Shown here piece after piece: positions 10,233-19,558 of a stretch of DNA of 33,159 nt. The position numbers and the translations under genes are program-made. The notes beneath the pieces were generated by a model. The model made no database searches. It had not been told where the DNA came from and saw only the letters and a list, made by a program, of their open reading frames with translations. This DNA is from Archaeoglobus sp. (GTDB taxonomy: Archaea; Halobacteriota; Archaeoglobi; Archaeoglobales; Archaeoglobaceae), in contig NZ_JACDNT010000002.1 in NCBI RefSeq assembly GCF_017656475.1, positions 1 through 33,159 on the forward strand, written 5' to 3'. Every line of letters starts with the position of its first letter. Positions within the stretch are counted from its first letter, which is position 1.

Positions 10233-10988
10233 ATGCTGACCTTCGTAGGGCTTGGGCTGTGGGATGCAAAAGACATTTCCGTCAAAGGGTTTGAGGCAGT
10301 AAGAGAGGCTGATGAGGTTTACGTGGAGTTCTACACCTCAAAACTTGTAAGCAGTATTGATGAAATGGAGGAGTTCTTTGGAAGGAAGATCATTGAGCTT
10401 GAGAGAAGTGACCTTGAAGAGAACAGCCGTAGACTGATTGATAGGGCAAAGGACAGGAATGTTGCTCTGCTGGTGCCCGGAGATCCTATGGTTGCCACAA
10501 CACATTCAGCCCTGAGACTTGAGGCTAAAAGAAGGGGTGTGAGGACAAGGATAATTCACGGGGCAAGCATAGTCAGTGCAGTCTGCGGGCTGACAGGGCT
10601 TCACAACTACCGCTTTGGAAAGTCTGCCACTGTAAGCTGGCACAAATCCGAGACACCGGTAAAGGTCGTAAATGCAAACAGAAGCATCGATGCCCACACC
10701 TTGCTGTTTCTCGACCTCCATCCAGAGCCGATGACTATAAAGCAAGCCGTGGAGCAGCTAATTTCGATGGATGTTTCAATAAAAGACATTTACGCCGTAG
10801 GCATAGCGAGAGCGGGTAGTGATGATGCAGTCATAAAATGCGACAAACTCGAAGCTCTGAAAAACATCGATTTTGGCGAACCTCTCCACGTGATGGTTGT
10901 TCTTGCAGAAACACTGCACTTCATGGAGTTTGAGTGCCTGAGAGAGTTTGCAGACGCCCCTCCTGAGTTAGAAAGGCTGGTAGCATGA
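10233..10988 (+). CDS. dphB: Diphthine synthase (DphB/Dph5)
   Basis: SAM-dependent methyltransferase of the tetrapyrrole-methylase fold that trimethylates the modified histidine of elongation factor 2 during diphthamide synthesis. The 251-residue protein starts with the conserved MLTFVGLGLWD and DISVKGFEAVREAD. It contains VPGDPMVATTH (SAM-binding loop) and HGASIVSAVCGLTGLHNYRFGKSATV, hallmarks of archaeal Dph5. Length is standard. No SD is seen before the ATG and no convincing TATA box was found in the 40-base gap shared with aglB. Its stop overlaps the start of a 29-codon membrane micro-ORF. Confidence 0.95.
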   Translation: MLTFVGLGLWDAKDISVKGFEAVREADEVYVEFYTSKLVSSIDEMEEFFGRKIIELERSDLEENSRRLIDRAKDRNVALLVPGDPMVATTHSALRLEAKRRGVRTRIIHGASIVSAVCGLTGLHNYRFGKSATVSWHKSETPVKVVNANRSIDAHTLLFLDLHPEPMTIKQAVEQLISMDVSIKDIYAVGIARAGSDDAVIKCDKLEALKNIDFGEPLHVMVVLAETLHFMEFECLREFADAPPELERLVA

Positions 10989-11074
10989 TGCTTCCAGAAA
11001 GGGAGAAGTGGGGGTTGCTCTTGCTTCTTCTCGGCTTCTTACTCGCCGTTTACATTCACTGGAGGTATTCGTGA
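10985..11074 (+). CDS. 29-residue single-span membrane micro-ORF
   Basis: The ORF begins ATGATG. The first ATG (10985) overlaps the dphB stop as ATGA. Its TGA (11072-11074) shares its last base with the ATG of the OB-fold gene. The product is a charged head (MMLPEREKWG), a run of about 15 mainly Leu/Phe/Ala/Val residues (LLLLLLGFLLAVYI), and a short basic tail (HWRYS). This is one predicted transmembrane helix with no signal cleavage site. GGAGGT for the next gene lies inside its last codons. I know of no named family for it. Overlaps at both ends and the clear helix suggest a real gene, though compositional chance in a 90-base gap cannot be excluded. Confidence 0.6.
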   Translation: MMLPEREKWGLLLLLLGFLLAVYIHWRYS

Positions 11075-11718
11075 TGAAGATTCCGAGGAGCTTTGAGGAG
11101 ATTCTTGAGCATTTTGGCGGGCTGATTGACGAGGTGACTGCCAGACTACTCGAAAGTTATGCTGAAGGAAAGGCTGTAAAGGTGAGCGAGGCTCTGAGCA
11201 AAAGCGGCAGGGTCGTTGTTGAGGGTAAAGTTCTGAGAGTTTTTCCTGTGAGACATTTCGATAAAAACGGCAGAAAAGGGAAAGTTGGCAGTATAATCAT
11301 TGAAGACGACCAAAAGGTCAGAGTAAACTTCTGGAATGAAGCTGCTGAGATGATAGAGGCGGGAGATATTGTAGAGGGTGTGAGGGTAAAGCTGAGGGGC
11401 TACTCAAGAGGTGGAGAGATACACGTCAACAGTCTTTCTGAGGTGGAGATTTTTCTCGACTTTGTGAGTGTTTCAGAACTTGCTGAAAAAGAAGGAGAGA
11501 GAGTGAACATTAAGGGATTTGTTACAGGCCTTGGAGAACCGGAAAAGGCGAGAGAAATTTACATTTCGGATGAAACAGGCAGGGTGAGAGTTTTGCTGGA
11601 AAACGAGAGTTTTTACTTTGCGGTTGACATAGGAACCTACGTTGAGATTTACAACGCTCTCGTTAGAGACAGCACGGTTTATGTGGACAGAAATTCGAGG
11701 TTTATTGTTGGAGAATAG
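11074..11718 (+). CDS. OB-fold nucleic-acid-binding protein, RPA-like
   Basis: A 214-residue protein with two OB folds. OB1 spans about residues 47-127 (VEGKVLRVFPVRHF, KVGSIIIEDDQKVRVNFWN) and OB2 about 142-213 (VNIKGFVTGLGE, IYISDETGRVRVLL). The F-P-V-R-x-F and F-W-N pattern is that of archaeal RPA/single-strand-binding proteins. No zinc finger is present. It may be an RPA accessory subunit or a related ssDNA/RNA-binding protein. The start at 11074 is supported by GGAGGT (11061-11066); a longer GTG-initiated frame from 11008 would simply re-read the upstream micro-ORF. The 3' end overlaps the convergent DUF123 gene by 40 bases. Confidence 0.8.
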   Translation: MKIPRSFEEILEHFGGLIDEVTARLLESYAEGKAVKVSEALSKSGRVVVEGKVLRVFPVRHFDKNGRKGKVGSIIIEDDQKVRVNFWNEAAEMIEAGDIVEGVRVKLRGYSRGGEIHVNSLSEVEIFLDFVSVSELAEKEGERVNIKGFVTGLGEPEKAREIYISDETGRVRVLLENESFYFAVDIGTYVEIYNALVRDSTVYVDRNSRFIVGE

Positions 11719-12032
11719 AAGAGATGGGATTTACACTCACAGTCGGAGCATCCGAATCCGTTGATTCTTTCAAAGTTTTCGAATTTTTGGGCGAGAATGC
11801 ATTCAGACTCTCTAAGGAGGATTGCTCCTATAACCTCCATTCTCGTCGAGATGTAGTCAATGTGCCACCTTTTTCTCTTTTTTGGAGAGAAATGCCTCTT
11901 GATTCTGTGCACACCGCTTTTGGCACTTCCAACATAGTAGTAGTAACCTTTCCTGAAGGAGATGACACCTAATGCTCCAACCTTGGTTTTGAAGTCCTCT
12001 TGGCAGTAAAGCAGGAGAACGTAAGAGGTCAT
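11679..12032 (-). CDS. DUF123 / Uri-type GIY-YIG nuclease-like protein
   Basis: A 117-residue member of the DUF123 family (COG1833), which has a GIY-YIG-like endonuclease fold. The signature is GYYYYVGSAKSG followed by RIKRHF and KRWHIDY; the tail GFGCSDCECKSHLF carries three cysteines and is usual for the family. I chose the ATG at 12032 rather than the upstream in-frame ATG at 12071. Relatives begin just before the YVLLL strand, and a TATA element is centred 25 bases upstream of 12032, inside the longer reading. The substrate is unknown; a structure-specific nuclease is the usual guess. It runs antisense into the last 40 bases of the OB-fold gene. Confidence 0.82.
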   Translation of the reverse strand: MTSYVLLLYCQEDFKTKVGALGVISFRKGYYYYVGSAKSGVHRIKRHFSPKKRKRWHIDYISTRMEVIGAILLRESECILAQKFENFERINGFGCSDCECKSHLFYSPTINLEFLST

Positions 12033-12051
12033 GTCAGTAACTTGAGCCAAG

Positions 12052-12063
12052 ATTTTATATTTT
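12052..12063. promoter_or_regulatory. Near-symmetric two-way TATA element
   Basis: ATTTTATATTTT reads as a box A on both strands. Its centre (about 12057) lies 24 bases before the plus-strand ATG at 12081 and 25 bases before the minus-strand ATG at 12032. Neither gene has an SD, so one element may drive two divergent leaderless transcripts. Confidence 0.6.
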
Positions 12064-12080
12064 GGCGACATAGACAGTCC

Positions 12081-19382: not shown

Positions 19383-19558
19383 ATGAACATCAAAAAGCAC
19401 AGACACGCACCCATAGGAGGACTTGCAGGGGGGACTGGGGAGGTCTGGCATCTCATTTCGGTTTGGGTGTTTTAGAAGCAGTATTGATTGGCGTTGCATC
19501 CTATATCGCCATAGAGGCAATAATACATACACTAGAAAAAATTGCGAGAAGTGGGTGA
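19383..19558 (+). pseudogene. Small membrane-protein gene with a one-base deletion
   Basis: The frame from ATG 19383 reads MNIKKHRHAPIGGLAGGTG, then EVWHLIS, and stops at 19473-19475 after 30 codons. In another frame the continuation GLGVLEAVLIGVASYIAIEA, IIHTLEKIARSG runs to a TGA at 19556-19558 and looks like a membrane helix with an amphipathic tail. Adding one base near 19459 (ATTTCGG) joins them into one protein of about 58 residues with a Gly-rich head and one hydrophobic span. The family is not recognised. It could be a decayed gene or a sequence error. Confidence 0.5.

Follow-up and report, generated by a model that had tools for sequence, protein, structure and literature searches.

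A conserved, putative membrane microprotein encoded directly upstream of an RPA-like gene in the Archaeoglobaceae

Background

Three kinds of described system come closest to the locus considered here. The first is sP36 of Methanosarcina mazei, a protein of 61 aa that acts on AmtB1 (PMC10714827). The second is provided by archaeal RPA genes, which pair with partner genes, as in the case of the RPA41 homologue and the COG3390 RPA-associated protein (PMC2643942). The third comprises tightly coupled gene pairs and leader ORFs; for such overlapping junctions, experiments in Haloferax volcanii and E. coli have demonstrated termination-reinitiation (PMC6728339). The present locus, which lies in a 33,159-nucleotide stretch of contig NZ_JACDNT010000002.1 from Archaeoglobus sp. 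(hereafter the window), touches on all three: a micro-ORF for a peptide with one predicted transmembrane helix immediately precedes a gene for a protein with RPA-type OB folds. A search of the open-access literature recovered no paper that connects a small membrane protein with an ssDNA-binding protein in archaea, and a search with A. fulgidus locus numbers returned only unrelated papers.

Results and discussion

A hydrophobic micro-ORF with overlapping junctions on both sides

In the window the ATG of the micro-ORF at 10985 overlaps the stop codon of dph5 (TGA, 10986-10988) in an ATGA junction, and its own stop (TGA, 11072-11074) shares a base with the start (ATG, 11074) of the OB-fold gene, here termed the RPA-like gene, in a TGATG junction (Table 1). 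The first-pass annotation, which had proposed a micro-ORF encoding a single membrane helix at this site, was exact with respect to its coordinates, its frame and both junctions. The encoded peptide, MMLPEREKWGLLLLLLGFLLAVYIHWRYS, contains a single strongly hydrophobic stretch; equal hydrophobicity is found in only two of the 95 ATG ORFs of 24-40 aa inside the window, and given these two matches hydrophobicity alone is weak evidence for a gene. Elsewhere in the window, at 19456 on the minus strand, there is another hydrophobic ATG ORF of 32 aa, MRCQTSPVPPASPPMGACLCFLMFIMLIILIF.

It had also been remarked that standard gene calling extends the OB-fold gene across the micro-ORF in a different frame. 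This is plausible, as the OB frame is open upstream to a GTG at 11008, but the extension is not conserved: genome G006 carries stops within it. An N-terminal extension from GTG 11008 was rejected on this ground, and the ATG at 11074 is most likely the start of the OB-fold gene.

Table 1. Features of the micro-ORF locus (positions in the window)
Feature	Position	Strand	Remarks
dph5/dphB (diphthine synthase)	10233..10988	+	Upstream neighbour; TIGR00522, E 4e-107
Membrane micro-ORF	10985..11074	+	29 codons and TGA stop; one hydrophobic helix; homologues; in-frame purifying selection
GGAGGT, Shine-Dalgarno-like site of the RPA-like gene	11061..11066	+	Within the W-R-Y codons of the micro-ORF
RPA-like protein, tandem OB folds, 214 aa	11074..11718	+	ATG overlaps the micro-ORF stop; directly follows 19/19 micro-ORFs

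Distribution and evolutionary conservation

A profile built from 15 of the micro-ORF peptides and searched against 393 genomes of the phylum (threshold E<=1e-3) matched 19 of them with one copy each, all in the Archaeoglobaceae, where 7 of the 13 genera are represented. Three of these matches (G046, G047 and G070) were blind, being absent from the seeds. No match was obtained outside the family among the 393 genomes, and none in the four genomes searched that belong to the same class but not to the family. In the genus of the window an alignable peptide is present in the gap of every genome in which the locus was found. The prospect, raised in the first-pass annotation, that the ORF or its hydrophobicity might be lost in orthologous gaps did not materialize, hydrophobicity being retained. 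The peptides range from 24 to 38 residues and share the consensus RERxGLLLLLLGxxxTLxLxW, with a Glu, a Gly and a Leu invariant in the 15 aligned sequences; the N-terminus and the helix constitute the conserved part, and the C-terminus is variable. The micro-ORF is accordingly short, conserved and predicted to encode one transmembrane helix, as expected of a small single-pass membrane protein. In the family libraries Pfam, NCBIfam and PHROGs the matches to the peptide are all weak, with E above 0.02, and stay below the cut-offs; PADLOC gives no match for the window peptide, and phage records contain none either, a 29-aa query being a weak probe of the latter.

The micro-ORF is absent from 6 of the 13 genera and from some genomes of a further genus (g10), and the RPA-like gene is still present there. 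Because several lineages without the micro-ORF keep the RPA-like gene, it is evidently an accessory, dispensable part of the locus. On a tree of the canonical RPA the presence of the micro-ORF is clustered, with members on both sides of the midpoint root, and requires 7 changes. This pattern is compatible with a gene that arose at or close to the base of the family and was then lost repeatedly, with transfer as a possible alternative. In G062 (L057 and L186) the stretch between dph5 and the RPA-like gene reads as an apparently degenerate, shortened remnant of the micro-ORF.

The nature of the substitutions is informative regarding the level at which the ORF is conserved. Pooled over six pairs of relatives sharing no genome, and with sites treated as independent, the micro-ORF frame shows a pS of 0.63 against a pN of 0.16 (Fisher p 6e-22), a difference part of which could be explained by selection for hydrophobicity alone. 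In the other two frames over the same stretch pN/pS is mostly about 1 or above, and the purifying signal persists upon removal of the start codon and the last six codons. Values of dN/dS, given only for pairs unsaturated at synonymous sites, are at most 0.23 where measurable; between G000 and G004 the micro-ORF stands at 0.12, dph5 at 0.06 and the RPA-like gene at 0.07. These comparisons indicate strong purifying selection at the protein level on the micro-ORF in its own frame. Together, the conserved copies in 19 genomes and the frame-specific synonymous bias bear out the original reading of a single-helix, putative membrane micro-ORF that ordinary gene calling can overlook, and conservation, as judged from sequence comparison, settles that it is a real gene. 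That it is instead a chance ORF without function can be practically discounted: short ORFs are indeed common, as the 95 of comparable length in the window attest, but this one is conserved in 7 genera at a constant position and under frame-specific purifying selection.

The constant neighbor is the RPA-like gene and not dph5

The product of the gene at 11074 shows the OB-fold Pfam domain PF01336 above cut-off, with OB folds of the RPA type, and its PDB matches are archaeal replication factor A sequences. It is called RPA-like here because its best score with the NCBIfam equivalog models of replication factor A, 65.8 bits, falls short of the cut-off of 362. Its structure model is confident (mean pLDDT 90.9), and the best fold match of the model is human RPA70, with whole-chain TM-scores of only about 0.3-0.45. 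By sequence and model, the gene is predicted to encode a tandem-OB, ssDNA-binding RPA-like protein. It is a second, shorter paralogue beside the canonical RPA: G000 also carries the 312-aa canonical RPA found across the family, followed by a gene of 230 aa. In one genome from the genus of the window, two additional and more distant homologues of the canonical RPA lie on a single contig (G006:C13:10437-11162 and 34112-34948). A further ORF of 130 aa (11679-12071, minus strand) converges on the RPA-like gene in the window and by eye resembles GIY-YIG/DUF123-type nucleases; similar ORFs adjoin the RPA-like gene in L007 (G013) and L010 (G016).

All 19 micro-ORFs directly precede the RPA-like gene, irrespective of whether dph5 lies upstream, and this holds even for genomes with a shortened RPA-like protein. 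In five genomes of g10 (G065, G067, G068, G069 and G070) the N-terminal OB region of the RPA-like protein has been lost, leaving frames of about 122-141 aa, and the micro-ORF is kept. In three genera (g1, g7 and g10) the micro-ORF is flanked by dph5 on one side and the RPA-like gene on the other. In four others (g3, g5, g9 and g13; 7 genomes) dphB is elsewhere and the micro-ORF directly precedes the RPA-like gene; its near upstream region holds either different genes or none. Thus, of the two couplings initially pointed out, the one with the OB-fold gene holds throughout, but the one with dphB is not specific. A role of dphB as functional partner was rejected, as 7 micro-ORFs have no adjacent dphB and, conversely, many dphB genes are not followed by a micro-ORF; the link to it appears incidental.

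In the 7 genomes without dph5 linkage a TATA-like element occurs 25-32 nt before the micro-ORF ATG, scoring 5-7 of 8 as against 3-5 in the dph5-linked group, and the micro-ORF is the first ORF after this element. This suggests a leaderless mRNA in these genomes; in G009 an SD-like GAGGGAG precedes the micro-ORF ATG instead.

The junction with the RPA-like gene and its bearing on function

With start codons picked by eye from homology, the start of the RPA-like gene falls between -5 and +14 nt relative to the first base of the micro-ORF stop in the 19 genomes. In 18 of them an SD-like motif (GGAGG, GGTGG or GGTGA) is present, with its first base 9-13 nt ahead of this start, and is mostly situated inside the last codons of the micro-ORF. 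Because the Shine-Dalgarno site of the next gene occupies these codons, the WR, WW and GG tails of the peptides appear to be in part a nucleotide constraint. The aromatic/basic tail noted earlier in the window peptide is accordingly present, but reflects in part the Shine-Dalgarno sequence of the following gene.

These junctions raise the alternative that the micro-ORF is a cis-acting leader, whose translation delivers ribosomes to the RPA-like start and whose peptide is of minor importance or acts only as a nascent chain. The micro-ORF overlaps or abuts the RPA-like gene and carries its Shine-Dalgarno site, and in lineages without it (g2, g11, G014, G016 and G066) the preceding gene itself overlaps the RPA-like gene or ends almost directly before it, both of which would be expected of such a device. 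However, conservation at the amino-acid level resides in the N-terminus and the helix, and it is the C-terminus, the usual site of arrest-peptide action, that varies. Moreover, g6, g12 and some g4 genomes showed no coupled ORF ahead of the RPA-like gene, so that neither the peptide nor upstream coupling is universal for this gene. Predictions of an RNA structure hiding the Shine-Dalgarno site of the RPA-like gene varied, the predicted unpaired probability of the site at 37 C ranging from 0.19 to 0.66 across genomes in no consistent pattern. A purely cis-acting role is on balance a somewhat unlikely account, though still the main rival; a leader function and a peptide acting in trans are not mutually exclusive and might both hold.

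The preferred reading, to which we assign a probability of roughly 0.6, is that the micro-ORF encodes a membrane microprotein that is made together with the RPA-like protein, inserted probably N-in/C-out and active in trans. Each step of this account, from translation onward, is inferred from the sequences. The micro-ORF would be translated into a single-pass membrane microprotein alongside the RPA-like protein, with ribosomes finishing the former restarting on the overlapping or adjacent start of the latter by stop-start coupling, a step that the Shine-Dalgarno site within the last micro-ORF codons may assist. The peptide would then insert into the cytoplasmic membrane, probably in the N-in/C-out orientation, which is suggested by charge only, and its function in trans would rest on the conserved N-terminus and the helix, including the invariant Glu and Gly. 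Action in trans is the best supported option because conservation is concentrated in these parts and not in the C-terminus, where arrest peptides usually act. Most likely the peptide would bind or regulate a membrane protein, and the RPA-like, putatively ssDNA-binding protein would take part in the same process; candidates are DNA uptake, the repair of DNA and a response to DNA stress. Direct binding to a soluble RPA-like protein is not obvious, since the membrane helix takes up nearly the whole peptide. A more specific version, in which the microprotein is the dedicated membrane-side partner of this second archaeal RPA-like protein and links ssDNA binding to the envelope, is doubtful, and the papers searched yielded no partner of this kind; if true, it might pertain, for example, to repair associated with the envelope, to DNA uptake or to a DNA-stress response at the membrane.

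By analogy with bacterial type I toxins induced by DNA damage, the micro-ORF could encode a hydrophobic toxin-like or membrane-depolarising peptide. Its size and hydrophobicity fit, as does the ssDNA-binding nature of the neighboring protein, but the single copy, the constant operon position and the shared vertical distribution over genera are unlike typical type I toxins and make this very unlikely. More improbable still is a programmed frameshift that fuses the helix to the RPA-like protein to give a membrane-anchored RPA: the two frames do overlap or closely abut, but a conserved fusion was rejected, as their relative register is 1 or 2 and varies even within a genus, and stop-to-start distances vary as well.

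Conclusions

The micro-ORF adds a conserved, putative microprotein family, unmatched in the libraries tested, to a group that includes the hyperthermophile model Archaeoglobus fulgidus. It ties a predicted membrane helix to the gene of a predicted DNA-binding protein through a linkage that outlasts changes in the upstream operon, and this constant adjacency hints that DNA handling and the cell membrane are connected in a way not yet studied. Should the peptide act with the RPA-like protein, it would represent an unreported membrane connection for archaeal ssDNA handling. The locus also offers a clear case of a peptide tail shaped in part by the Shine-Dalgarno site of the following gene.

In relation to the systems described at the outset, the peptide resembles sP36 in being a very short archaeal protein with the membrane as its actual or predicted site of action; however, sP36 is longer, its target is known, and it shuttles between cytoplasm and membrane, whereas the micro-ORF peptide is predicted to be a permanent helix and is tied to an RPA-like gene. 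As in the RPA operons (PMC2643942), the gene concerned encodes an RPA-like protein with tandem OB folds, but here it is a second, shorter paralogue, and the candidate partner is a membrane peptide rather than an OB-fold protein. Coupled overlapping pairs and leader ORFs (PMC6728339) have in common with this locus the ATGA and TGATG junctions and an upstream ORF that carries an SD-like site close to its 3' end; the difference is that the upstream ORF is in this case a conserved, putative membrane peptide of 24-38 codons.
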